64,000 bases of DNA. It comes from Thioalkalivibrio versutus (lineage in GTDB: Bacteria; Pseudomonadota; Gammaproteobacteria; Ectothiorhodospirales; Ectothiorhodospiraceae). Both the position numbers and the translations under genes were made by a program. Shown in pieces: positions 4,362 to 56,960 of the stretch. A model generated the notes under the pieces. It had not been told where the DNA came from. It ran no database searches and saw nothing but the letters and a program-made list of their open reading frames with translations. The first letter of the stretch is position 1. Every line of letters begins with the position of its first letter. The stretch is from NCBI RefSeq assembly GCF_001999325.1, contig NZ_MVAR01000001.1, forward strand, positions 1-64,000, given 5' to 3'.

Positions 4362-6308
4362 TTACAGGCTCCGGGCCTCCAGCCAGTTCCGGGCGGCGCG
4401 ACGCAACCTTCGGGTGACGCCGCGCCGCCCGGAAACCTCCAGCTCGCGTGCCAGTCGGTCCCAGTCGATGGGCTGCGCCAGGCTCGCCTCGAGCAGCTGA
4501 CCTTCCGGCTCGTCCGGCGGCGCCACCGCCAACTGCCGCAGCAACGCGGGAAGCGCCCACTCCAGGGGCCGCGCCCGCTGGGAAAAGGCTCGGACCTCCT
4601 TCAGATCCGCCACCGGGTCAACCGGCGGCAAGGGACAATCTCCCTCCGCATCCTGATCCCCAAGGACTTCGCTCACCATGGCCGCGGTCGTGTCCGGCAG
4701 GAACCGTGGATGCCAGGCCGGCCAGTCGCGCCGAAAGGCCGCCAATGCTTGTTGCAGCCGGGGCTGCAATCGGGGCGCGGTCGCACGCAGGACCACGCCG
4801 CTCACCTGGCCACTGGCCGCATCCGGCTGGATGCCGACTCGCACCAGGCCATAACCCGCGCGCAGCCAAAGGTGCAGCAACACAGGTTGCAGCCCGAAAC
4901 TCGCGCCAATCAGCGCCACCCCCTTGGCACCAGCCCGGTCCGCGACCGCACGCAACAGACGACTCCCCAGGCCCAGCCCCTGCCAATGCGGATGCACCGC
5001 AATGCGCTGAATGCGCCACGCGCCCTCCCCCGCCAGGTCGAAGTCACCCCGGGCCGCAACGGTGCACGGCAGGAAATGCCCCTGCGGGCGCCGTTCGCCC
5101 GACCAAACCGCTTCGGCTATCCCGCGTTCCAGTTCGCCCTCTTCCTGGATCAGAACCACCCCGAACAGGGCGCCATCCGCCGCCCCTTCCAGCAGCAACA
5201 GGTGAACACCCGCATCATCCAGCCAGCGCGCCAGATCGGAGGGCCGTGTGCGGTAATGGGCATCTGCCAGCAGGCCCATTACTGCCTCCAGGGTTTGCGG
5301 CGTGTCCGCGAGCGCCGTGCCCGTGCTCCAGCGCAGCCGCACGGCCTGGGAGACCGGGGGGCGACTCGCCGCCTCCAGCAGGAACAGCCGATTCATCCAG
5401 TCCTCGAGCGGATCGCCCCGGGCCCAGCGGACCGGTGTATCCAGGGTCTGTAGCCGCACGCAAAAGCCCGCCCCCTCCAGGGCCGGCAGCGCACGCAGCC
5501 GAAAGCCCTGTCCACTCCCCTCGAAGCCGCCGGTCGTGGTCGCCAGCACCAGGCGCCGTGCCAGCCGGGCCAACTGGAGCAGGCGCTCGACCGGCATGCT
5601 CGCGGCCTCGTCGATGATCAAGGTATCCAGCGGTTCCGCGTGTTCCAGCAAAACGTCCGGGGCCCGGTAGTGCCATTCCGGCGCGTGCGTCCAATGTCGG
5701 GCGCGCGCCAGCAATGCGTCCACGGCCCGTGGTCCCGGCGCCGTCAGCGTGATCGTGGATTCGCCGCGCTGCAGTGCCGCGCCCAGGAACTCGCCCAGCA
5801 GGGTCGACTTGCCGCGGCCACGCGGGGCGGTCAACGCCACACATTCGCCCGGCGCGAGTCCCGCCAAATGCCCCAGCGCGACGGCCTGATCCGGCGTCCA
5901 CGCAAACGGGCCCGCCGCCCTCGGCATGATTCCGGGCAGTCGATCCGCCGACGGCGGCTCCACGGTCCGCACCCACGGCTCGGCCAGTGCCGCCTGCCAG
6001 CGGCGGGCAAACGCCCCGTCTCCGCCGGTGCCGTCGAGGATCACCAGGGTGCCACCGCCGAGCAGCAGGCCTGCGACCGTGACCAGGGCATCCACCGCGA
6101 GCGGTTGCCGGGCCTCGAATACCAGGGCCTGTACCTCGTGCCCCAGCCAATGCCCAGCCTGCGCCGGCGCCACATGCGGCACCCCGCCGGGCGGCGAACG
6201 CCCCACCCACAGCACCGGCCCCTGCGCCGCAGCAGCCCGCAGCCAGTTCGCAGCCGCCTGCCAGCCTGCATTATCGGCAGACAACCGGTAGAGCGTACGG
6301 GCCTCCAT
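4362..6308 (-). CDS. tmcA: tRNA(Met) cytidine acetyltransferase TmcA
   Basis: A 648-residue enzyme that makes N4-acetylcytidine at the wobble base of elongator tRNA(Met) using acetyl-CoA and ATP. Domain order fits the family: N-terminal domain, RecD-like helicase domain with Walker A APRGRGKST (about 161-169) and Walker B-like LDTLIIDEAASM, a GNAT domain with acetyl-CoA loop HPHWQGLGLGSRLL (about 434-448), and a basic C-terminal tRNA-binding tail. Length is close to the E. coli enzyme. It is transcribed towards the chemoreceptor gene, with 9 bases between stop codons, and diverges from the che operon. Confidence 0.93.
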   Translation of the reverse strand: MEARTLYRLSADNAGWQAAANWLRAAAAQGPVLWVGRSPPGGVPHVAPAQAGHWLGHEVQALVFEARQPLAVDALVTVAGLLLGGGTLVILDGTGGDGAFARRWQAALAEPWVRTVEPPSADRLPGIMPRAAGPFAWTPDQAVALGHLAGLAPGECVALTAPRGRGKSTLLGEFLGAALQRGESTITLTAPGPRAVDALLARARHWTHAPEWHYRAPDVLLEHAEPLDTLIIDEAASMPVERLLQLARLARRLVLATTTGGFEGSGQGFRLRALPALEGAGFCVRLQTLDTPVRWARGDPLEDWMNRLFLLEAASRPPVSQAVRLRWSTGTALADTPQTLEAVMGLLADAHYRTRPSDLARWLDDAGVHLLLLEGAADGALFGVVLIQEEGELERGIAEAVWSGERRPQGHFLPCTVAARGDFDLAGEGAWRIQRIAVHPHWQGLGLGSRLLRAVADRAGAKGVALIGASFGLQPVLLHLWLRAGYGLVRVGIQPDAASGQVSGVVLRATAPRLQPRLQQALAAFRRDWPAWHPRFLPDTTAAMVSEVLGDQDAEGDCPLPPVDPVADLKEVRAFSQRARPLEWALPALLRQLAVAPPDEPEGQLLEASLAQPIDWDRLARELEVSGRRGVTRRLRRAARNWLEARSL

Positions 6309-6434
6309 GTCAGTGGCTCCCTGGGATCAGATCACGCATGAACGAACGAGTTTCCGGGGATGAAAGCGGCCATCTCCTCACGCTGCCGGGCCGAAGATCC
6401 AGCCATTGATCGGGCGGCCGGGGTGAAACTTGTC

Positions 6435-33598: not shown

Positions 33599-34705
33599 TC
33601 AGGGCTCGGCCTGGTTCCTGTTGCCCTTGCGATGGTCCTTGGCCGCCTTGCGCAGCAGGTGCGGAACCAGCAAGTGCAAGGGCATGCGCAGATAGTGCGA
33701 GCGTACATACAACAACCAGCGGGCGGTGCCGGACAACCGGCCGTCGCAACTCCAGTGATGCGGTTTCAGGCCGCGCCGGAACAGGCCGTCCATCAGTGCC
33801 AGAAGAGGAGGCGCCGGACGCGCCGCGGCCAACGCGCGGAACGCCGAATCGGGGACGGGGGTCTGCAGGAACTCGCGACCATAGCGCAACGCATAGTAGA
33901 GCGGGCGTGCCAGATCCATCTCGAAGGCGCGCGCCGTCAGGTGTTCCCAGAAGTCCGAATCCTCCGCCACAAAACGACGCAGTAGCGCATCCATATCCGC
34001 CAGGTCCCGCAGGCCGTTCTCCAGTTCGCCATCGTGAAACAGATGCGTCGCACTGTGCAGGACCATGTCGGCCGGCCCCGGAACGTACATTCCGGGAAAG
34101 CCATCCAGCGGCAGCGCGGCCGCCCACAGGAGTTCCGGATCGGGATGCAACCGCGCGGTCGGCGGCAGGATGGTGTGATGCACATCCAGCACGCTCTTGC
34201 GCCGCATGTGCGTGAGCGGAGGCAGCTCGTGCATCCACTGGCGATAGTAGGTCTGGTCGTAGGTGTCGTAGCCCTCGCAGACCCACCCCTGAACGAACAG
34301 GTGCTGTTCCGCCGACTGGATCTGCGCCTGCGGGACCAGGATGTCGACATCGGAGAACTGCCGCCCCGGCGCACTGGGCAGCCCGGCCATCACGTAGGCC
34401 GCGCCTTTCAGGAGCATCACCGGGATCGCCTCCGGCGCCAGGGCCTCGTGAATCCGTGCCACCTCCCAGCGAGCCATGGCGTGCTGGCGATCCGCCAGGA
34501 CCCGCGCGACGTGCAGGTGTCGCCGGGGCGCCGGAGGCACATCCGACAACGCCCCGGCATCCTTGATCAAGGCATGCAACCGCCCCTCCAGAGAGGCCAC
34601 TCGCGCCACCCGGACCAGCCAATCCCAATCCGCCAGCGAAAGACTGCGGGAGGCTGCCGGCTCGGCGAGGACCGCGAGCAGTTGCTCCAGCACAGGGCGC
34701 GTCAT
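33599..34705 (-). CDS. NTP_transf_5-type nucleotidyltransferase of the HPr-rel-A unit
   Basis: A 368-residue protein. The nucleotidyltransferase core is near residues 97-122: LLKGAAY followed by RQFSDVDILV, giving the G-(S/A) and D-x-D metal-binding pattern of the Pol-beta-like superfamily. An Arg/His-rich C-terminal region follows. Members of this uncharacterised family often accompany HprK-related kinases and PqqD-like chaperones. Its start overlaps the kinase stop by 4 bases (ATGA), so the genes are coupled. The substrate is unknown; transfer of a nucleotide to the exported protein or a small molecule are both possible. Confidence 0.8.
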   Translation of the reverse strand: MTRPVLEQLLAVLAEPAASRSLSLADWDWLVRVARVASLEGRLHALIKDAGALSDVPPAPRRHLHVARVLADRQHAMARWEVARIHEALAPEAIPVMLLKGAAYVMAGLPSAPGRQFSDVDILVPQAQIQSAEQHLFVQGWVCEGYDTYDQTYYRQWMHELPPLTHMRRKSVLDVHHTILPPTARLHPDPELLWAAALPLDGFPGMYVPGPADMVLHSATHLFHDGELENGLRDLADMDALLRRFVAEDSDFWEHLTARAFEMDLARPLYYALRYGREFLQTPVPDSAFRALAAARPAPPLLALMDGLFRRGLKPHHWSCDGRLSGTARWLLYVRSHYLRMPLHLLVPHLLRKAAKDHRKGNRNQAEP

Positions 34706-35607
34706 GCGGCCCCCCCGGCGAGATCATTCAGCAACCCCAGGGAGGCATCCAGGTCCGCGTACTCCAGATTCAGGCAGGCGCTTTGCTCGATCAGATCGGC
34801 AGCTGCCTCGAAACCCGCTCCGCCCACCACGCTGTAATTGAAGGACGAGCCGATCAGCTTCAGCAATGCCTCGGCCCGCTCCAGAGGTTGCAGGCGGTCA
34901 CGTCCTCCGGCCGCAAAGCGCGGGAAGACCAGCCAAGCCGGCCCGGCCTGCTGGTGCATCCGTTCAATGCTCGAATCCGGTGGCTTCAGATGTGCCACGG
35001 TCCCCTTGCTGGTGTCGTGGGAGGCGGGACCGATGATCGCCTGCGGATGGCGTTCGCGGATCAGGTCGATGGCGGCATTCTTCAGGCTGACCGGACGCGG
35101 CAGCGCGACCAGCTTGCCGGTCGCCAGCGACAGCAGGGCGAATTCGTCCGACAACAACCGCCAGCCCGACAGGGTCAGGGCCGCGGTCAGCGTGCTCTTT
35201 CCCGCCCCGGGCTCACCCGGCATCACCAGCGCCCGGCCGTCGCGCTCCAGCACCGCCGCATGGATCATCAGGAAGTCATGGGCGTGCTGGGCAATGCACC
35301 AGTTCAGCCCCCACTCGAACAGCGGATAGGCATGCGCCAGCGGCAGGGGGCGGAAGGGCGAGCGACCATCCAGGAAGAAACGCGCCTGCGGACGCCAAAC
35401 CGAGCGCAGGCCGGGGGAGGCCGCAAGGGTGACATGGAAATCGGCGAAGGGGGTACTGGCGGCCGGCAAAAGTTGCCGGTCGTAGAACAGGGCCACGGAG
35501 CGCTCGACCCGGTCCAGCCGCGAACGCAAGCGGACCACGAAGGGCCCCACCTGGATGGCAAGGCCGGCGTCCCGCAACCCCGCCCTCAGGTCTTCATGGG
35601 CAATCAC
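34702..35607 (-). CDS. HprK-related kinase A
   Basis: A 301-residue protein with a P-loop GEPGAGKST (about residues 130-138) preceded by FLMIHAAVLERDGRALVM and followed by LTLSGWRLLSDEFALL, as in the HPr kinase/phosphorylase fold. The N-terminal part lacks the HprK regulatory domain and no HPr gene is nearby. It belongs to the HprK-related kinase A type defined for HPr-rel-A systems. It overlaps the PqqD-like gene upstream and the nucleotidyltransferase gene downstream by 4 bases each. Its substrate is unknown; the exported Cys-rich protein or the chaperone-bound peptide are candidates. Confidence 0.85.
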   Translation of the reverse strand: MIAHEDLRAGLRDAGLAIQVGPFVVRLRSRLDRVERSVALFYDRQLLPAASTPFADFHVTLAASPGLRSVWRPQARFFLDGRSPFRPLPLAHAYPLFEWGLNWCIAQHAHDFLMIHAAVLERDGRALVMPGEPGAGKSTLTAALTLSGWRLLSDEFALLSLATGKLVALPRPVSLKNAAIDLIRERHPQAIIGPASHDTSKGTVAHLKPPDSSIERMHQQAGPAWLVFPRFAAGGRDRLQPLERAEALLKLIGSSFNYSVVGGAGFEAAADLIEQSACLNLEYADLDASLGLLNDLAGGAA

Positions 35608-35906
35608 GCGTCCCGCGACTCCGGGGAGACACGGATCAGATCATGCTGCCGCAACTGGCTCAAGCCGGCGTGCATCGCATCCTCCAGGTCCCCTTCCGTG
35701 GCGTCATATCGCTGTTCAAGGTACTCGAACAGGGTGGCCGGCGTCATCGGCCCCTCTTGCAGGGCCTGGAAGATGTCGATCAGAGGGGGCTGCAGGACGT
35801 GCGTCTCGCCACAGCGCTGATCATAGACAACCACCGATTCACCCCATGCCCGCACGTGAGCGGCGGGCAGCGGGATCAGCGCAAAGGATTCTTCAGAAAC
35901 GGACAA
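35604..35906 (-). CDS. PqqD-family peptide chaperone of the HPr-rel-A unit
   Basis: A PqqD-like winged-helix protein of about 100 residues. Recognisable features are VVYDQRCGETHVLQPPLIDIFQAL, the beta-hairpin and helix that bind leader peptides in PqqD, then a helical LFEYLEQRYDATEGDLEDAM. The frame is open upstream to 36050, but that would overlap the exported-protein gene by 89 bases. TTG at 35906 gives MSVSEESFALIP with GAGG 6 bases before, leaves a 55-base gap, and gives a typical PqqD length; this start is tentative. It overlaps the kinase gene by 4 bases. Confidence 0.75.
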   Translation of the reverse strand: MSVSEESFALIPLPAAHVRAWGESVVVYDQRCGETHVLQPPLIDIFQALQEGPMTPATLFEYLEQRYDATEGDLEDAMHAGLSQLRQHDLIRVSPESRDA

Positions 35907-35961
35907 TGGGGCCTCGTGTACCGACCGGCCCAGGAGCGCTGGTGGGCAGCGCCCCGGGATA

Positions 35962-36732
35962 TCAACGATTGAGAGTGCCGGACGAGTTGGTCCGCACCTC
36001 CACGCACTCGCCCGCCTCGTTGCGCGTGTAGCCGTCTCCGCAGTCGCCAAGGCCGTTGATCGGGCAGAAGCGCTCGTTCATGTAGGCGAAGACGTTCGTC
36101 ACCGCGGAGTGCTTGCCCACATCCTCGCGGGCCATCGAATAGGCCTTGATCACCTCGTCGACCGAGGCGCCGAAGTCGATCGAGGTACACGCTGCGTTCA
36201 GAACGGCACCCACTGCATGCCAGTCGAGCGACCCCCTGCACACGCCCCAGGCATGGAGCACCTCCATCAGCGAGGGTGTGCCGGTCAGGCATTCCGGCCT
36301 GTAACCGAAGACCTCCTCGAAGGAGGTCGCCCCGCCCGTACCCACGGTGGCGTCAAAACGCTGGCAGTTGTTGTCGGTCCCGCTGGTCTGAATGCAGGAA
36401 CCCGGGGAATACCCGGTGCACTCCCAGGCACCCCAGTTGTCCTTCCAGAACGCCGAGGTACAGCCATCGCCCGCGGTGCACTCGTGGTCAATGTTGGAGA
36501 CGTTGGCGGAGAAGATGTTGCCCGACAGCGAGCACTGACCCTGAGCGCCCCAGACCGACTTGGCCGGGAGCGACACCAGCATCGCCCCACCCAGGCCGGC
36601 CGCGGTCAGGCGGCGCCGGCTGCGACTGCGAAGGCCGGACGAACCCGTGTCCGGGTCCACGGGAGCGGTGGACTTGCCCTCGCCTACGTCTTCGGGGCCA
36701 TGATTTCCGTTGTGCTCGTGTTCATCACTCAT
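35962..36732 (-). CDS. Tat-type exported Cys-rich protein, putative substrate of the HPr-rel-A unit
   Basis: A 256-residue protein. A 38-residue acidic/His-rich lead is followed by SRRRLTAAG (38-46) and a weak hydrophobic stretch ending near VWGA (63), a twin-arginine-like signal. The mature part has 12 Cys (67, 85, 91, 105, 113, 123, 148, 165, 182 and three near the C terminus), an even number suited to disulphides. CTSAFWKDNWGAW (91-103), FEEVFG (138-143) and HAVGAVLNAA (172-181) resemble a group of exported proteins marked by CTPGYWKNH and RHAVAALLNAA. ATG at 36732 has GGAG upstream. It is first in the unit after a sigma-54 promoter. Confidence 0.82.
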   Translation of the reverse strand: MSDEHEHNGNHGPEDVGEGKSTAPVDPDTGSSGLRSRSRRRLTAAGLGGAMLVSLPAKSVWGAQGQCSLSGNIFSANVSNIDHECTAGDGCTSAFWKDNWGAWECTGYSPGSCIQTSGTDNNCQRFDATVGTGGATSFEEVFGYRPECLTGTPSLMEVLHAWGVCRGSLDWHAVGAVLNAACTSIDFGASVDEVIKAYSMAREDVGKHSAVTNVFAYMNERFCPINGLGDCGDGYTRNEAGECVEVRTNSSGTLNR

Positions 36733-36851
36733 GCTTGCCTGCTCCAGGTCAAACCTCGCCATTTCGCCGTCCGGGCAACGGCACCCGGCCACGCCGCAAT
36801 GGGCTGCGATCCGGGGGGTACACTGCAATCAGACGCTTTCTCCTGGAACAT

Positions 36852-36867
36852 AGCAAGCGGGATGCCA
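36852..36867 (-). promoter_or_regulatory. Sigma-54 promoter upstream of the exported-protein gene
   Basis: On the minus strand the site reads TGGCATCCCGCTTGCT. This fits the RpoN consensus TGGCACG-N4-TTGCW with invariant GG and GC exactly 10 bases apart and TGGCA and TTGCT complete. Transcription would begin about 12 bases further, leaving a leader of roughly 105 bases to the ATG at 36732. A bacterial enhancer-binding protein would be required; none is in the window. Confidence 0.75.
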
Positions 36868-36988
36868 GCCTTTTGAATAACGGGTAACTTACTGATATAA
36901 AGGCTCCGACCCTCGACGACACAAAGCCCGCGGGGCACGCGGAGGCGCCGAGTGGAAAGTTTTCCGACAGCCCTGAGTGGCCCGCCCC

Positions 36989-37723
36989 TCATACCCGCCG
37001 CACCCGCAGAATGAACGAATGACTCAGCCACGCCCCGGCGGCCGGCACCGCCTGCAGGAAACTCCGGGTGCCCCGGTTCTCCAGGAGCGGCTGCAAGCGC
37101 GCCAGGCGGCCGGGGGCCAACGGAAGCCAGTACAACGCCTCGGGCCGCAGACCCACGGCCTCCGCCGCCGCGCGAAGACCCTGAGGGTCGTCGTAGCGCA
37201 GATGCGGCGGACGCCCTCGCCGACACCGGCGCCATTCGCGAACCGCCGTGGGCAGGCAACGCAGGTTCAGCGCATCGACCCAGGCCTCGCCTCCCGGGCG
37301 CAGAACGCGCCGAATCTCGGCAAGTGCCGGCTTTGGATCCGACAAGGCCTGCATGACGCCGAAGCAGAGCACCCCGTCGAAGGCGGCGTCCGCCAGCGGG
37401 AGGTGATTAATGTCCGCCGCCAGCCAGGGAATGGCCGGATCACTTCGATCCCGCGCCTTCTGCAGGGAGGGCGTTGAGTAGTCCAGCCCCCAGACCCCAT
37501 GGCCCTGCGCATGCAGCATCCGTGTGTAGGTTCCCGCGCCACAGCCGACATCCAGCCAGCGACCGGGCTCCAGGTCGGCGCGCCGCCACAGCCGCTCGAA
37601 CTGCCGGATGCGGCTATGCAGGCCGCTGTGTGTCCAGCCCGCGATCCCGGCATCGTCCTCCAGGTTCGCCCCGCGCTCCAGGAAGCGCTGGCGCCAGCGG
37701 CGTTCGAAGCCGGCATCCTTCAC
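36989..37723 (-). CDS. Class I SAM-dependent methyltransferase
   Basis: A 244-residue methyltransferase with motif I LDVGCGAGTYTRML, an acidic loop end in GLDYS, the DINHLPLADAAFDGVLCFGVM segment and RRVLRPGGEAWVDALN. This is the methyltransf_11/UbiE-like fold acting on small molecules. GTG at 37723 is preferred because AAGGTG precedes it and it leaves a 40-base gap; the frame is open to 37810, inside the upstream gene. It lies between the GAF gene and the sigma-54-driven unit, but is transcribed separately from that promoter. The substrate is unknown. Confidence 0.8.
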   Translation of the reverse strand: MKDAGFERRWRQRFLERGANLEDDAGIAGWTHSGLHSRIRQFERLWRRADLEPGRWLDVGCGAGTYTRMLHAQGHGVWGLDYSTPSLQKARDRSDPAIPWLAADINHLPLADAAFDGVLCFGVMQALSDPKPALAEIRRVLRPGGEAWVDALNLRCLPTAVREWRRCRRGRPPHLRYDDPQGLRAAAEAVGLRPEALYWLPLAPGRLARLQPLLENRGTRSFLQAVPAAGAWLSHSFILRVRRV

Positions 37724-37763
37724 CGGTTCGCACCTTGCGCCATCGCCATGACCGCGTGATGGT

Positions 37764-38486
37764 TCATTCCCGGCCCTCGCTGACCTGACCGATGAGTTCG
37801 GTCGCGGCAATCAGCACATGATCGCGGGAGAATCCGGCCCGGCTCATCTCGTCGTACAGCGTGCGCGCCAGCAACCGGGCCACGCGTTCCGGGGCGTGAG
37901 TAATGGGGCCCGTTGCCGCCCCCGGCTGTCGCGCCAGCGCCATCTGCGTAAAACTCGTGCGCAACAACCCCTTTAGCCGATGGACGAGGACCGACTTCGC
38001 CACCACCAGGGCCAGGATCAACGCCCGGCGCAAATCCTCCTGCGTCAGCCGGCCCCGCCCCTCGGGGCTGTCGATGTTGATCACGCCCAGCAGATCGCCC
38101 TCCAGAATCACTGGCACCGCGATCACGTCGACCGGACCCGCGCCCTCGGCCCGCCGCGCCTCGGCTGCAAGATCGGAGGCATGCAGGTCACGAATCAGCA
38201 GCCCCTTGCGCGCACTCGCCACCCGCCCCGAAATTCCCGAGCCAAGCGGTTGCCTCACGTCATAGGCCTGATCGGGCAGATACCCGTGATGTGCCTGGAC
38301 GCGCAAGCGCGCCGCACCCCCGTCCGGGTCCGGCTTCAGCAGCATGATCGAACAGCGCTCGCACTCCATGGCGTGACTGACCAGCGCGGCCAGGCCGGCC
38401 AACCCCTTTTCCAGGGACTCGGCCTCCTCCACAAAATGAGCCAGCTCCATCAGCCGCTCGTCGAATGCATCAAAGGCCTCGCCCAT
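37764..38486 (-). CDS. GAF-domain protein
   Basis: A 240-residue cytosolic protein with one GAF domain (about 25-165): ECERCSIMLLKPD, LGSGISGRVASARKGLLIRDL and VIAVPVILEGDLLGVINIDS are typical. The C-terminal part is helical and has no catalytic output domain. GAF domains bind small ligands or chromophores or mediate dimerisation. Its gene precedes the methyltransferase gene by 40 bases; both may share a transcript. A regulatory link to the HPr-rel-A unit is only positional. Confidence 0.8.
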   Translation of the reverse strand: MGEAFDAFDERLMELAHFVEEAESLEKGLAGLAALVSHAMECERCSIMLLKPDPDGGAARLRVQAHHGYLPDQAYDVRQPLGSGISGRVASARKGLLIRDLHASDLAAEARRAEGAGPVDVIAVPVILEGDLLGVINIDSPEGRGRLTQEDLRRALILALVVAKSVLVHRLKGLLRTSFTQMALARQPGAATGPITHAPERVARLLARTLYDEMSRAGFSRDHVLIAATELIGQVSEGRE

Positions 38487-38626: not shown

Positions 38627-41600
38627 TCAACCTGCTCGGGGCTTCGCGGATTGCCTGACGCCCTTTGCGGCCGGCGCTGCGGACGCCGCCACGCCCAGCA
38701 ACAGCACCAGGTAGAACAACAGGGCGATCCGCGGGGAGTAGAACAGCGTACTGAACACGCCGATCGACAACGCCCCTGTTAACGCGGCAGTCGACGCCAG
38801 CGCCACCGCATCGCCCGCCAGCGAACGCCGCACCAGCAAGACCAGGGCCGCCAGTGTCAGCCACACAAAGGCCAGCAGGCCCAGCCAGCCCTGATCGAAA
38901 TAGATCTCCAGCCACTGATTCTCGACCCGCCACGGCCACAGATGGTCCGTGGTGAAGTACCAGTAACGGCCCAGATGCTCGAAGTCGCCGTTGGCGACGT
39001 ATTCACGACCGGCCGAATCCCGAACCTGCACGCTGTAAAATTCGGTGACAGACCGCTGGCGCGCATCGACCCCCAGCGACAACACCAGGCCGCGCTGAAT
39101 GGGCCAGGGGCGTGTCTCCATCGGATCCAGATCGAAGGTCCACTGGAAGGTCTGACGTCCGCCGTCTTCCAGACGCATGCCTTCGCTGCGACAAACGAAG
39201 GAATGGCGGATGGGCTTCTCGCAGATGAAGACTCGAAATCCCGTGGGCTGGGCACTGGCGGCCTCCACGGTCAAGGTATAGAGACCGTCGCGGGGCAGGC
39301 TCACCCGCTGATTCACGAACAACGAATCGCCACCGCCGATTTGCAGGCGCGGCTCACCCTCCGCGCGGGTGAAGGCCAGATTGCCGGGCAAGCGCCCGTC
39401 CCGGTTTCCGGTCCGGTAGTGCTCCGGAAAACTGCCGACACCCCGCCCAAACAGAGGTGAAAGCGGCCCGCCGCCCGGCAGTTCGAGGGCGGCCTGCCAG
39501 TGATCCATGCGGACTCCGAAGTCACGTTCGATGTGGCTCATCCGCTGCTCGGCAAACCCGCCCAACGTGGTGCCCGCAACCAGGGCAATCGCCACCACGG
39601 GCAACAGCACACCGACCAGTGCCCCCTGCCGAGCCTGCATGCGCCCATGCAACGCCGCCAGCAGCACCCCGACCGCGAGCACGACCACAGCCACCGCCAA
39701 CCCCAGATAACCGCCGCGCGAATAGGTCATCGCCACGGCGTATGCCGTCCCGACCGCCAGCAGGGCCGAGCCGGCGAGCATCAGGCCGAGGCGCTGGCGC
39801 CAGCACCAGATCAGGGCCAGGGGAAAGGCCAGCACCAGAAAGGTCTCGATGCTGGGCCCTCCCGCCTGCATCTCCGAAAACAGCCCTGACAGCCGATAGC
39901 CACTATCGAAGTTCAGCAGCCCGGGATAGGTAACCCGCTCGCGCACCACGAACGCCAGTTGCGCCAGCAGGGCCAGCGCCACCCCGGGGAGAAACCAGCG
40001 CGTCACCTGCTCCGGCACCGGGACAGGCGCAACCCTCAGCATCGCCAGCAGGACAACCGCCCACAACAGGCCCTTGGCCACCCGCAGGGCATTCCACTGG
40101 TGGGCAAAATGCACCGCCTCGCCAGGGTTCCAGGTGCCGGGCGGGAACAGGGCAACCGCCAGGCTGATCAGCGTCGAGGCCACCAGGAGACCCAGCGCCC
40201 AACGGATGCCGCGCGGCAACAACGATGCCCCCGCATGCAGCGCATGCGGCCCGAGCCAGAGGGCCATGGCCAGGGTCATCAACAGGAACAGGTCCAGCTC
40301 GGAGACGAAAAGGCGCCCGTGGTAGAGCGTCAGGTCCAGGGTGGCCAGCAGCACGGGGATCACGAACAGCCAGCCCTGCGGCCGCCACGCCAGCAATGCG
40401 GCATAGGCCAGCAACCCGGCGCTCAGTGCCACGGGCACGACCGGCCAGGTCACCGCCAGCAACAGAGTCGCCAGCGCCAGCAGGCCGGCAAGCGCCTGGC
40501 GCAGGCGCTGAAAACCGCGCGGATTCGGGCCCGGCCCGGCCGGCTCCGGGTGGGGACCGCGTGGTTCAGCCGCAGCCCGTCCCGCGGGTGCGCCCCCCAC
40601 GGCACTGGCACGACCCAGCCATTGCAGCAGCGCGGCCATCGCCCAGGCGGCCAGGCCGGCAAGCACCAGGCTGGCCGGGTCCGGGCGCGCGCCGTCCACG
40701 AAGAGCTTGGCGGCCTCGACCAGCAGCGCCAGGACAACCCCTGCCACGACGGCCAGCAGGTTCAGCGCCGACGGCTGCAGGGGACGGCGCAGCTGCCACA
40801 ACCAGACCAGGAACCCCAGCGGTGCATACATGGCCAGATGCAGCGCCGTACTGCGCAGGGCGTGAATCTCGTCCACGTGATAGTGGTAGTAGAACGGCCA
40901 CAGGTTCAGGTCGGCCCACTGGGTTCGGGCCGCTTCCACATCGGCGTGGAACGGGCCGAAACCGTGGTTGAGCGCGACCAGCAACAACGCGTAGAACACG
41001 GCACCGATCACGAGTATCGGCGTGGCGAACTGCTGCAGCGTCCGGATCACGCCATGGGGATGCGCGGGCAGGTTCCGGAACAGGACCAGGCCGATGCCCA
41101 TCCCCAGGGCCCGCAACAGCACGGACCGCCCCTCGGCGATGCCCGACAGGGTGGCGAGATTCAACAGCTCCAGCAGCCCCGCAAGAAGCAGGGCCAGCGG
41201 GATCCCGGCCCCCAGCAGCGAGGCGCCGCGCCGGTGCAGCCACAATGCCAGGAGCAGCCCCACCGGGATACTGGCGACCACCTCCAGCGTCAGCCAGCTG
41301 ATACAGCGAATCCCGCTGGTGCAGGCCCCGGCAGCGACCCACCAGCCCCAGGCATCGGATGCCAGGCGAGCCCGCAGCTCGTCCATGGCGAGCACCAGGT
41401 CAAAGGGGACAAAGCCGACCATCACATAGGCGGCGGCATAGATCACCAGCCCGGCGGTCAGGGCCTGAGCACCTGCACCCTCCAGCACCCGACGCCAGCG
41501 CGCCAACGGGTCGCGCAACGCCAGCCAGGCGAGCGAGCCGGCCACTGCCCCGGAAAAGTTTCCGGCGATATCGGCCGCCGCCGGATGCCGGTACGGCAAC

Positions 41601-41977
41601 CACACCTGCAAGAACTCCACGCCGGCCGTAACCGCCAGGCCCAGGGCGGCCACGAAGACGAACGCGCCGGCCGCAAGCAGCCGGTTGCGGCGACCATGAG
41701 TCAGCCATGCGGTCCAGAAGAACCCCAGCGGCAGGAACATCAGGGCATTGGCCATGAACTGCTGGCGGCCACTGGTTCCGGGGCCGGTCAGGCTCATGCC
41801 ACGGTAGATCTCCCAGGCACGCTCCAGGCTCATCGAGCCGAATTCGAAGGGCAGCAGCGTCAGGTAGACCGCCGCGCCCAGCGACAGCCAGGCCCACAGC
41901 GCGCAGGTACGCAGCGAAAGCGGTTCCGAACCGGCGCGCGGCCGGCTCATCGAAGGGTCAGGGAAGCGCCGATCCAT
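38627..41977 (-). CDS. Fusion protein: VanZ-like domain(s) and O-antigen ligase/polymerase
   Basis: A protein of about 1116 residues with more than 20 hydrophobic segments. The first part is VanZ-like (LTLLPFEFGSMSLERAWEI, FMANALMFLPLGF) and a second VanZ-like block follows. From about residue 510 it becomes an O-antigen ligase/Wzy-type polymerase, with TYSRGGYLG in a periplasmic-loop position. Near residues 860-1020 is a soluble beta-rich insert (RLQIGGGDSLFVNQRVSLPRDG) that looks like a carbohydrate-binding fold. Start at 41977 (MDRRFPDPS) is uncertain; 41950 is an alternative, and no good ribosome site supports either. It probably polymerises or attaches the polysaccharide made by this locus. 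Confidence 0.8.
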   Translation of the reverse strand: MDRRFPDPSMSRPRAGSEPLSLRTCALWAWLSLGAAVYLTLLPFEFGSMSLERAWEIYRGMSLTGPGTSGRQQFMANALMFLPLGFFWTAWLTHGRRNRLLAAGAFVFVAALGLAVTAGVEFLQVWLPYRHPAAADIAGNFSGAVAGSLAWLALRDPLARWRRVLEGAGAQALTAGLVIYAAAYVMVGFVPFDLVLAMDELRARLASDAWGWWVAAGACTSGIRCISWLTLEVVASIPVGLLLALWLHRRGASLLGAGIPLALLLAGLLELLNLATLSGIAEGRSVLLRALGMGIGLVLFRNLPAHPHGVIRTLQQFATPILVIGAVFYALLLVALNHGFGPFHADVEAARTQWADLNLWPFYYHYHVDEIHALRSTALHLAMYAPLGFLVWLWQLRRPLQPSALNLLAVVAGVVLALLVEAAKLFVDGARPDPASLVLAGLAAWAMAALLQWLGRASAVGGAPAGRAAAEPRGPHPEPAGPGPNPRGFQRLRQALAGLLALATLLLAVTWPVVPVALSAGLLAYAALLAWRPQGWLFVIPVLLATLDLTLYHGRLFVSELDLFLLMTLAMALWLGPHALHAGASLLPRGIRWALGLLVASTLISLAVALFPPGTWNPGEAVHFAHQWNALRVAKGLLWAVVLLAMLRVAPVPVPEQVTRWFLPGVALALLAQLAFVVRERVTYPGLLNFDSGYRLSGLFSEMQAGGPSIETFLVLAFPLALIWCWRQRLGLMLAGSALLAVGTAYAVAMTYSRGGYLGLAVAVVVLAVGVLLAALHGRMQARQGALVGVLLPVVAIALVAGTTLGGFAEQRMSHIERDFGVRMDHWQAALELPGGGPLSPLFGRGVGSFPEHYRTGNRDGRLPGNLAFTRAEGEPRLQIGGGDSLFVNQRVSLPRDGLYTLTVEAASAQPTGFRVFICEKPIRHSFVCRSEGMRLEDGGRQTFQWTFDLDPMETRPWPIQRGLVLSLGVDARQRSVTEFYSVQVRDSAGREYVANGDFEHLGRYWYFTTDHLWPWRVENQWLEIYFDQGWLGLLAFVWLTLAALVLLVRRSLAGDAVALASTAALTGALSIGVFSTLFYSPRIALLFYLVLLLGVAASAAPAAKGVRQSAKPRAG

Positions 41978-42294
41978 GAATCGGTGCAGGCGCGCGTCAC
42001 GCCCGAATGCACATGGGGCGCAGCGACGCCCCTGCAATCAGGCGGCACGTCGGAAACCATGGGGCAACAACGCGGACGGACACACGGTTCAGCGTCTCCC
42101 GGGACGAAAGCGTCCCGCCACTGTAGCTCCGGCCGCGCCCATGAACAGCGCGGGCGTTATGCGGGCGTGGCGTTCGCCATCCGTGCGCCGCGCCGGGGCC
42201 CAGGGGAACGGTGCGCGCCGCGCCAGGTCCCGAAGCTTCCCCATCAGGAACCTGGGGGGGCATCAACGCGAACGCTGATGGGCTCGGCGCCCCC
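41978..42294. other. 317-base gap with a GAAA-containing hairpin
   Basis: No gene is supported here between the UDP-HexNAc dehydrogenase stop and the VanZ/ligase start. A hairpin CGGGACG-AAAG-CGTCCCG lies at 42100-42117; it lacks a T-tract on either strand. GC-rich inverted runs around GGCGCGGCGC are also seen. A promoter for the downstream gene is expected but was not recognised. Confidence 0.4.
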
Positions 42295-43584
42295 TTACAG
42301 GCGGAGATCCGTGGCAGTACGGGGGAATACCGATTTCACGTCGAAGATTACCGACTCGGGCCGTGCCAGTTCGCGGATGGCCTCGATCCCCATCTGCAGG
42401 AATTCGCGGTGCGGCACGGCCACGATGATTGCATCGAACTGCCCCGGTGCCGGCGTCTCGGTCACCGGCGTGATGCCGTACTCGTGCTCGGCCTCGGCCG
42501 GGTCCACCCAGGGGTCGAAGACCGTCACCTCGGCGTTGTAGCCAGCCAGGGTGGCGTGGATGTCGATCACCCGGGTGTTGCGCAGGTCCGGGCAGTTCTC
42601 CTTGAAGGTTAGCCCCATCACCAGGATCCGCGCCCCCACCGGGTTGATGCCCTTGCGCACCAGGGCGCGCACCGTGTTGTCCGCGATGTGCGCGCCCATG
42701 GCATCGTTCACGCGCCGCCCGGCCAGGATCATCTCCGGGTGATGGCCCACCGCCTGTGCCTTGTGCGTCAGGTAGTAGGGATCCACGCCAATGCAGTGTC
42801 CGCCCACCAGGCCCGGCCGGAAGGGCAGGAAGTTCCACTTGGTTCCGGCCGCCTTCAGTACCGCCTCGGTATCCAGGCCCAGGCGCTCGAACAGCAGGGC
42901 CAGCTCGTTGATCAGGGCGATGTTCACGTCGCGCTGCGTGTTCTCGATCACCTTGGCGGCCTCGGCCACGCGGATGCTCTCGGCCTTGTGCGTCCCGGCG
43001 GTGATCACCCGCGCATACAGCCCGTCCACGAAGTCGGCCACCTCAGGGGTGGAGCCCGAGGTGACCTTCATGATGGAGGTGACCCCGTGTTCCTTGTCGC
43101 CCGGGTTGATGCGCTCGGGGCTGTAGCCGGTGAAGAAGTCCCGGTTATGCACCAGCCCGGACTGCGCCTCGAGGATCGGCACGCAATCCTCCTCGGTCGC
43201 GCCCGGGTAAACGGTGGATTCGTAGATCACCGTGTCGCCCGGCTTGAGGACCTGCCCCACGCTGCGGCTGGCTCCCAGAAGCGGTCCCAGATCCGGTCGC
43301 TTGTGCAGGTCGATCGGCGTCGGGACGGTCACCACGAATACGTTGCATTCGCGCATGGTCTCGAGATCGGCGGTGTACGTCAGCTGCGGGGTCGCGGCGA
43401 GCTTCTCCGGCTCCACCTCGCGCGTGCGGTCCACTCCAGCCTGCAGCTGCCGCACCCGCTCCGGGTCGATATCGAACCCGCGGGTGGGCCATTGATGGCC
43501 GAATTCCACGGCCAGTGGCAGGCCGACGTACCCCAGACCAACTACTCCGATGGTGACTTCATCCAGCGCGGGAAGCGTATGCAT
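42295..43584 (-). CDS. tviB: UDP-N-acetylhexosamine dehydrogenase, TviB/VipA type
   Basis: A 429-residue NAD-dependent dehydrogenase that oxidises C6 of a UDP-HexNAc to the uronic acid. The N-terminal Rossmann motif is [33 protein letters not shown] and [19 protein letters not shown] follow, and the catalytic Cys lies in [14 protein letters not shown]. The overall sequence is close to TviB of the Vi antigen pathway, so UDP-GlcNAc or UDP-GalNAc is the likely substrate. WecB, encoded nearby, makes UDP-ManNAc, so a ManNAc role is also possible. It supplies an acidic sugar for the polysaccharide of this locus. Confidence 0.88.
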
Positions 43585-55517: not shown

Positions 55518-56960
55518 ATGCGTGATTACCTGCTCGCCCTGATCGTCGTCGTGCTCGTGCCCCTGATCGTGCGCTACGCGTGGATCGGAATCCTGGCCTG
55601 GTTCTGGGTCGGGCTCTTTGCGCCCCAGTGGCACACCTGGACCTTCATGCGCGGGGCGCCCCTGGCGACCTACTTCGGCGGGGCGACCCTGATCGCACTG
55701 TTCCTGGCAAAGGACCGCAAACCGTTTCCGTTCACGCGCGAGACGGTGATGCTGTTCGCGCTGGCGGCGTATTTCGCGATGACCAGCCACTTCGCGGTGA
55801 ATTCCAGTGGCGCATGGGACTTCTGGATCCACTTCATGAAGATCCTGCTGATCACCTTCATCACCCCCCTGCTGATCTACGGCGAGCGCCGCATTGTCTG
55901 GCTGCTGCTGGTGATCACCGCCTCGCTCGCCTTCTACGGATTCAAGGGCGGCATCTTCGCCATCCAGACGGGCGGGGCTCACATGGTCCTTGGGCCCGTT
56001 GGCTCCTACCTTTCCGGCAATACCTACATCGGCCTGGCCATGCTCATGGTGCTGCCACTCATCCTGGCAAGCGCGCGCATGTTCCATCACCAGTGGGTCG
56101 ACCTCGGATTCGACCTGCTCCGTCGATTCTCGCGCCCCATCAGCTGGTTCCTCTATGGCGTCTTCTGGCTCACCGCCATCGCGATCCTCGCCACTCACTC
56201 GCGCGGGGCTTTTGTCGGCCTGCTCGCGATCGTGCCCCTGCTCTTCTGGCACATGCAGAGGAAATGGCTAATGGTCGGCGTCGGCTTTTTCCTGATAGCG
56301 GTGGTCGGTGTCACTGCACCGGAGCCACTGGTCGAGCGCTGGCAGACGATCGAGACCTACGAGGAAGACACCTCCGCCATGCAACGCATCCAGTCCTGGG
56401 GCATAGCCTGGAACATGGCGCTGGAACGACCGCTCACTGGCATGGGCTTCCGCAACGCCGCGCTGGGCTACGAGTGGTGGATTGGGTATGCCAATTTCGA
56501 GGGCGGCTGGCGCCACGTGCTATCCCCGCACAGCGTTTATTTCGGGATCCTGGGGCAACACGGGTTCGGCGGCCTGACCGTATTCCTGCTACTGATCGCC
56601 TTTACCTTTCACACACTCAACCGGGTCCGGCGCACGGCGCGCCAACGGACCGGAGAGATCTGGCTGTCGGAGTACGCCTGGGCCCTGCAGATTGGGCTCG
56701 TGGGCTATCTGATATCCGGCATCTTCCTGGATGTCGCCTACTTCAACCTGCTGTATGCCTTTATCGCCCTGACCGTCATCATGCGCAGGGAACTGGAACA
56801 GGCCCCGCTGGCAGCCACAGCCCCGGCATCCGCCCGGCCCTCCTCGGCATCGGAACCAGGCTCCGATGCCGGTCCCGAACCCGAGTCCGAACCGGCCCCC
56901 ACCGGCAAGGACACGGTGATGTCCGGCACCCTGATGGGGCCGTCATCGTCCAGGGGCTGA
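55518..56960 (+). CDS. O-glycosylation ligase family protein, exosortase A system-associated
   Basis: A 480-residue inner-membrane protein with about 11-12 hydrophobic helices and the Wzy/WaaL-type periplasmic loop around THSRGAFVGLLA. The N terminus (GILAWFWVGLFAPQWHTWTF) and GPVGSYLSGNTYIGLAMLMV match the family annotated as O-glycosylation ligase accompanying exosortase A. An Ala/Pro/Ser/Glu-rich C-terminal tail of about 45 residues extends into the cytosol or periplasm. It likely polymerises or ligates the glycan of this locus. Confidence 0.88.
   Translation: MRDYLLALIVVVLVPLIVRYAWIGILAWFWVGLFAPQWHTWTFMRGAPLATYFGGATLIALFLAKDRKPFPFTRETVMLFALAAYFAMTSHFAVNSSGAWDFWIHFMKILLITFITPLLIYGERRIVWLLLVITASLAFYGFKGGIFAIQTGGAHMVLGPVGSYLSGNTYIGLAMLMVLPLILASARMFHHQWVDLGFDLLRRFSRPISWFLYGVFWLTAIAILATHSRGAFVGLLAIVPLLFWHMQRKWLMVGVGFFLIAVVGVTAPEPLVERWQTIETYEEDTSAMQRIQSWGIAWNMALERPLTGMGFRNAALGYEWWIGYANFEGGWRHVLSPHSVYFGILGQHGFGGLTVFLLLIAFTFHTLNRVRRTARQRTGEIWLSEYAWALQIGLVGYLISGIFLDVAYFNLLYAFIALTVIMRRELEQAPLAATAPASARPSSASEPGSDAGPEPESEPAPTGKDTVMSGTLMGPSSSRG

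Follow-up and report, generated by a model that had tools for sequence, protein, structure and literature searches.

The HPr-rel-A systems are defined by models for an HprK-related kinase (HprK_rel_A, TIGR04352) and a PqqD-related chaperone (PqqD_rel_X, TIGR04353), and the question raised by any such locus is which molecule its enzymes modify. The locus considered here is a four-gene operon on the minus strand (36732-33599) of a stretch of 64,000 nucleotides (nt) from Thioalkalivibrio versutus (contig NZ_MVAR01000001.1, positions 1 to 64,000), which in the following is called the window. It encodes, in this order, an exported protein labelled EXP, PqqD_rel_X, the kinase HprK_rel_A and a nucleotidyltransferase (NTP_transf_5). 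The cassette exceeds both cut-offs which define HPr-rel-A, whereas the names of the models mention only the kinase and the PqqD chaperone. An initial annotation of the window stated that HPr-rel-A has no established product, and in the literature we searched no published product, substrate or regulator for HPr-rel-A or the HprK-related kinase was found. It also suggested that the chaperone, the kinase and the nucleotidyltransferase modify a protein or peptide, perhaps the exported one. The sequence comparisons support this suggestion, and it is probable that the operon makes and tailors EXP by PqqD-guided phosphorylation, a nucleotidyltransferase step and export by the twin-arginine translocation (Tat) pathway.

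The gene order given in the initial annotation is correct, and both overlaps of 4 bases which it reported, between PqqD and kinase (35604-35607) and between kinase and nucleotidyltransferase (34702-34705), are real. The stop codon of EXP is separated by 55 bases from the PqqD-like gene, for which TTG at 35906 is the most likely start.

EXP belongs to the HPr-rel-A system as a conserved fourth component. We compared 113 kinase loci, made up of 27 from a class-wide sample of 274 genomes, relatives from the same family, the 80 best of a scan covering 84,980 species genomes, and the window; a few of these sources overlap. The sampling was by kinase similarity and gave mainly Proteobacteria, and since the sequences are related the counts are of non-independent events. 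Homologues of PqqD and of the nucleotidyltransferase are found in all 113 loci, the latter inverted or moved in a few. An iterated profile trained on these same loci places an EXP homologue beside the kinase in 110 of the 113; EXP starts were set by rule, and in a few homologues the limits are poorly defined. Two of the loci without EXP (L061 and L126) are at contig edges, and L126 resembles a group which has EXP downstream. Nine loci fetched after the profile had been built (genus members in which a single-sequence search had missed EXP, and one family member) all contained EXP, with the serine motif described below in all eight for which the N-terminus was printed. The co-occurrence of the four families across genomes, which the initial annotation had proposed to look for, is supported by these counts, and homologous loci consistently devoid of the exported protein were not encountered.

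Counted by genome in the sample of 274, EXP is present in 23 of the 27 kinase-positive and in 6 of the 247 kinase-negative genomes (p=4e-24). The apparent cases of EXP without kinase are of two kinds. In several the match is confined to the C-terminal G-[TS]-P-G-[YF]-W domain, carried by other proteins; in two (G101 and G184) it is confined to the signal region of short Tat-type peptides, which adjoin weaker HprK-like kinases. A locus on a Vibrio alfacsensis plasmid, found independently via the nucleotidyltransferase, also has EXP, annotated as a hypothetical protein and carrying the motif C-S-I-T-S-C-M-S-G-N-A-S, and an unannotated PqqD-like frame lies between EXP and the kinase. EXP mostly precedes PqqD, but in about 13 loci it is located 3' of the nucleotidyltransferase, and two loci carry two tandem EXP genes with a single kinase (L117, 2541-4040; L119, 8020-9546). 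A gene which is mobile yet stays with the cassette, and which is duplicated beside one kinase, behaves as expected of a substrate.

The sequence of EXP itself points in the same direction. Profile searches in Pfam, NCBIfam and PDB gave no family or fold covering EXP, 62 aligned homologues gave only single chance matches to profiles from these databases, and comparison of the predicted EXP structure with PDB gave only noise. The homologues are mostly 180-290 amino acids long and evolve fast, the mean column identity being 17% in 63 aligned homologues. Only three columns of this alignment, R40, S70 and S75, are fully invariant, and a conservation of at least 90% is reached by R39, C67, S79, C85, G90, W103, F138 and N179; in the larger set of 112 sequences the three motif positions are serine in 99/103, 99/101 and 97/107 of the aligned residues. 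The initial annotation called the protein Cys-rich, which holds for the protein in the window (12 Cys counted by eye) and not for the family, where only C67 and C85 are conserved. The family pattern can be written S-R-R-[RK]-[LF]...T-L-A-S-R-P-V...C-x2-S-G-x3-S-G-N-x-S...C-x-G-[TS]-P-G-[YF]-W-K, with the serine motif placed just after the signal.

The signal is of the Tat type. A twin-arginine motif S-R-R-x-[FL] is followed by a hydrophobic stretch, tatC is present in the genome, and there is a basic residue near the end of the signal, which is typical of Tat. The twin arginines imply that a folded precursor would meet the cytoplasmic enzymes before export. In the predicted model the mature domain (about 90-220) has a predicted local distance difference test score (pLDDT) above 90 in most blocks. 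The duplicated EXP beside a single kinase, the Tat-type signal and the two invariant serines are the reasons why we favour the exported protein as the one that is modified. Two larger predicted proteins (L178:4726-6153 and L179:5920-7812) contain the C-terminal G-[TS]-P-G-[YF]-W domain of EXP with no neighbouring HprK; this domain is undescribed and without a relative in PDB.

The kinase, which shares 93% identity with the kinase of Thioalkalivibrio sp. ALMg11, looks active from its residues. H116, G134, G136, K137, S138, T139, D154 and E155 do not vary among 26 divergent orthologues, and the P-loop, whose conservation the initial annotation had made a touchstone of its proposal, is therefore kept throughout. 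The best matches in PDB are HPr kinase structures; they are weak, but the P-loop, the upstream His and the Asp-Asp/Glu region align, and the features of HprK-type serine kinase chemistry, the P-loop Lys, the His and the acidic pair, are conserved. The protein is nevertheless not a member of the HPr(Ser) kinase/phosphorylase family, as it scores 12.9 bits against a cut-off of 240 for TIGR00679. SynChlorMet (ScmC/ScmD) and HprK_rel_B also have related kinases, and SynChlorMet has a PqqD protein, but all scores are far below the cut-offs of those families. There is a parallel to the serine kinases of lasso peptides, in which a His-Lys-Asp-Asp set is essential (PMC9266682) and to which H116, K137, D154 and E155 correspond.

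The nucleotidyltransferase likewise looks active, with K100, G101, D119, D121 and D174 invariant in 45 sequences. Its AlphaFold model has a pLDDT of 94, and the nearest folds are MenT1 and the antibiotic nucleotidyltransferases ANT(2'')-Ia and LnuA, none of them below E=0.001. Its profile matches the nucleotidyltransferase domain of a lasso B2 protein from Deinococcus. According to reviews, a kinase of the same general type as HprK_rel_A phosphorylates a serine in the pseudomycoidin cluster, and the appearance of one or two hexoses on the pseudomycoidin phosphoserine requires the nucleotidyltransferase-like PsmN; a review of this work leaves it open whether PsmN is a nucleotidyltransferase with the host adding the hexose. 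Gene fusions in related loci bear on how the enzymes work together. PqqD is fused to the kinase in L168, L169 and L170, and in L166 (4367-6775, minus strand) an HprK_rel_A-like domain and a PgaC/IcaA-like glycosyltransferase domain form one protein of 802 amino acids. These fusions support a hand-over from chaperone to kinase, a coupling to sugar transfer and the working order proposed below. In one locus (L088:9993-11090) a second PF14907-like gene lies 3' of EXP.

The phosphorylated and phosphoglycosylated lasso peptide systems (PadeK, ThcoK, PsmK with PsmN) share with the cassette an HPr-kinase homologue acting on serine, a PqqD-type recognition element and a nucleotidyltransferase of detectable common ancestry with the lasso-associated one. 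They differ in that EXP, the proposed target, is a Tat-type exported protein of about 200 amino acids with an internal serine motif, and no lasso precursor lies beside the cassette. Neither a B2 transglutaminase-like protease nor a lasso cyclase was recognised among the window neighbours scanned or the recurrent flanking families named, and in place of a precursor with a C-terminal acceptor Ser there is EXP, whose conserved serines are internal. Membership of a lasso cluster was rejected on the missing protease and cyclase. With two defining lasso features absent, the known relatives tell what the cassette works like, namely lasso-peptide phosphoglycosylation, and not what it is.

The promoter places EXP in a regulon. 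Haft and colleagues (PMC1569441) reported that proteobacterial PEP-CTERM genes are preceded by a 17 nt motif which ends in TTTACA, is followed 32-92 nt later by a sigma-54 site and is co-distributed with PrsR, PrsK and PrsT. Upstream of EXP, sigma-54-like sites with a score of at least 25 are found in 67 of 108 loci, the corresponding figures being 5.9 for shuffled sequences, 3 for the antisense strand and 5 for gene interiors, so the sigma-54 site of EXP is not a chance occurrence. The sigma-54 promoter claimed in the initial annotation was recovered as TGGCAtcccgcTTGCT at 36867-36852, exactly at the end of the interval then assigned to the unit. A box was derived independently of the published matrix (PMC1569441); its family consensus, TGTCGGAATWATTTACA, agrees with the published motif 1 in its length of 17 nt and in its 3' end TTTACA. 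This hexamer occurs upstream of EXP in 54 of 74 non-redundant promoters where 2.7 are expected, and 82 of 108 EXP promoters have a joint score of box and sigma-54 site of at least 44, where shuffles yield 0.0. The spacer of 85 nt in the window lies within the published range. In promoters L040-L152, which come from related and not independent loci, the spacers cluster at 51-53, 61-65, 72-78, 82-87 and 92-97, as expected for an activator bound to one face of the helix, and this suggests a helical-phase constraint on the activator.

The strict pattern of box and sigma-54 site occurs at only 3 places in the genome, and a reversed-pattern control gave 0. Apart from the site upstream of EXP, one, at contig position 93536, precedes a gene of the XrtA exopolysaccharide locus, and another lies upstream of a protein ending ...VPLPGPVWLIGLGLVMLGAFRRYR..., a PEP-CTERM-like tail. 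TIGR02595 finds few PEP-CTERM proteins in this genome and misses the one found via its promoter. PrsR is encoded in the genome (717 bits). The Vibrio alfacsensis plasmid locus is without the box and sigma-54 promoter. As judged from these promoter sequences, EXP is likely to be under the same PrsR/sigma-54 control as the exosortase/PEP-CTERM genes.

The distribution of exosortase agrees with such a regulon. In the class-wide sample, exosortase (TIGR02602) is present in 25 of 27 genomes with the kinase and in 60 of 247 without it (p=2.5e-12). Of 29 genus members 15 have the kinase above cut-off, and these same 15, and no others, also have exosortase above cut-off; the two genes are roughly 36-49 kb apart where they share a contig, and within the genus they may simply co-travel on one island. 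The association across families is the stronger argument because the cassette sits in other contexts there; in Thiobacillus, for instance, it adjoins housekeeping genes. Two kinase-positive genomes (G052 and G057) have no detected exosortase, yet their promoters carry the box (L043 and L056). The flanks of some loci encode PrsK (TIGR02916), PrsT (TIGR02917), an XrtA-system export protein (TIGR03027) and a chain-length protein (TIGR03007), and at 55518-56960 on the plus strand the window has a putative exosortase A-associated O-glycosylation ligase (TIGR03097, 339 bits). The likeness to the PEP-CTERM/exosortase (XrtA) regulon with PrsK-PrsR (PMC1569441) thus includes the two-part promoter, the same genomes and the presence of prsR. 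In EXP, by contrast, a search for a C-terminal PEP-CTERM sorting signal gave no NCBIfam match and no C-terminal membrane helix by eye, so by sequence EXP is not itself an exosortase substrate.

The following model would account for these observations. EXP would be made as a precursor with a Tat-type signal under the PrsR/sigma-54 control which serves the exosortase (XrtA)/PEP-CTERM genes. In the cytoplasm the PqqD-like protein would present EXP to the HprK-like kinase, which would phosphorylate one or more serines of C-x2-S-G-x3-S-G-N-x-S. The nucleotidyltransferase would then add a nucleotide, or bring about the attachment of a sugar to the phosphate, the role which PsmN appears to have in pseudomycoidin. 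The folded and modified EXP would leave via Tat for the envelope or the exopolysaccharide matrix, and its export would be one output of the PrsR switch which also drives the exosortase substrates. The initial annotation had mentioned neither the serine motif nor the PrsR/exosortase regulon, nor the parallel with lasso peptides. For HPr-rel-A, the literature searched and the models scanned contained no mention of EXP with its serine motif and Tat-type signal, of the PrsR/sigma-54 promoter or of a link to exosortase. With them HPr-rel-A, formerly defined by models only, gains a candidate for its substrate, in which residues can be named, as well as a route of export, a likely regulator and a place in the biology of the cell, that of exosortase and exopolysaccharide in biofilm and floc formation. 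If the model is true, RiPP-style tailoring enzymes (RiPP, ribosomally synthesized and post-translationally modified peptide) also modify full-size exported proteins in a setting of twin-arginine export, and the PrsR switch has a second, parallel output alongside exosortase at the cell surface.

Several points weigh against this model. We infer the modification of EXP and have observed none; no leader in common with lasso precursors can be recognised in EXP; and the target of lasso kinases is a C-terminal serine and not an internal motif. The serine motif lies in a low-confidence, probably flexible part of the predicted EXP model and may not be accessible, and the EXP homologues of L056, L063, L065 and Sphingomonas are without the full motif. 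One locus with complete flanks (L118) has no EXP detectable by profile search, and the second catalytic acid of the kinase is Glu and not Asp.

A bolder form of the model, which we put forward only tentatively, is that the cassette is dedicated to the phosphoglycosylation (or phospho-nucleotidylation) of a single matrix protein exported by Tat, with RiPP-type enzymes recruited from peptide tailoring. The decoration would be phosphodiester-linked, the protein would join or be attached to the exosortase-associated exopolysaccharide, and those loci in which very short Tat-type peptides accompany an HprK-like kinase would represent further branches of this class. It is rather unlikely that, with EXP as the substrate, the nucleotidyltransferase alone attaches adenosine monophosphate or another nucleotide to the serine or phosphoserine with no sugar step. 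The three nearest folds of the nucleotidyltransferase model, the K/G...DxD...D residues of the family and the latitude left in the pseudomycoidin review for PsmN all suit such chemistry, but the sole functional data on a relative show hexose on phosphoserine, and a related kinase is fused to a glycosyltransferase domain.

Since PqqD proteins normally serve short precursors, and since related HprK-like loci have Tat-type peptides of 56-90 amino acids beside the kinase in place of a protein of about 200, the enzymes could instead modify a short peptide encoded nearby or elsewhere, EXP being a partner (carrier, receptor or anchor) of the product. We judge this improbable: EXP is the only conserved fourth gene in the 113 loci, no recurring short-peptide family was seen (open reading frames below 90 amino acids were not clustered), and the signal architecture which the short peptides have in common with EXP suggests that EXP is their equivalent. 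It is very unlikely that EXP is an ordinary PrsR-regulated matrix protein beside a three-gene regulatory kinase module acting on exopolysaccharide synthesis; such an arrangement would fit the exosortase linkage and the exopolysaccharide neighbours but fails to explain why EXP stays with the cassette in Thiobacillus, Massilia and the Vibrio plasmid, and leaves the invariant serines and the Tat-type signal unexplained. The idea of an anti-phage system was rejected, as the four proteins matched 0 PADLOC families.

Table 1. Positions of the operon genes, EXP motifs and promoter elements in the window, and of short Tat-type peptides in related loci (RRE, RiPP recognition element).
Feature	Position	Strand	Remarks
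EXP, exported protein, 256 amino acids	35962..36732	-	ATG at 36732; undescribed family; proposed substrate
PqqD_rel_X (TIGR04353), RRE/PqqD-type peptide chaperone	35604..35906	-	60.4 bits, cut-off 35
HprK_rel_A kinase (TIGR04352)	34702..35607	-	GTG start; 390 bits, cut-off 200
NTP_transf_5 nucleotidyltransferase (PF14907)	33599..34705	-	206.8 bits, cut-off 31.2
Twin arginine R39-R40 of Tat-type signal (S-R-R-R-L-T)	36613..36618	-	R40 invariant, R39 at least 90% conserved
Core motif C67-x2-S70-G-x3-S75-x-N-x-S79-x5-C85, proposed acceptor serines	36478..36534	-	conservation in 63 homologues
PrsR-box-like element TGTCGGAAAACTTTCCA	36953..36969	-	85 nt 5' of sigma-54 site; TTTCCA in place of TTTACA
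Sigma-54 (-24/-12) promoter TGGCATCCCGCTTGCT	36852..36867	-	one of only 3 strict box and sigma-54 pairs in genome
Short Tat-type peptides	L163:6446-6709; L164:4576-4749, 6212-6391; L170:2850-3065; L174:1964-2236; L176:7042-7212

Directly upstream of the operon, at 36989-38486 on the minus strand, a class I methyltransferase and a GAF-domain protein with weak similarity to the N-terminal part of NifA are encoded, and this pair is found at the same place in several genus members. Between the operon and the TIGR03097 gene lie a fused VanZ/O-antigen-ligase-like protein (38627-42037) and a TviB-like uridine diphosphate-sugar dehydrogenase (42295-43584); judged by these neighbours, the right part of the window appears to be the margin of the XrtA exopolysaccharide locus. 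In other genomes, weaker HprK-like kinases with PqqD and/or PF14907-like neighbours adjoin the short Tat-type peptides listed in Table 1, of which MSDHNQSRRSFIKKAAYIAPVVLTLKASPSMAYNYGSAQ...HGSKKFGSRKDD is an example. Several of these peptides have Gly-Ser pairs after the signal, and the loci possibly form a broader class of the same kind.

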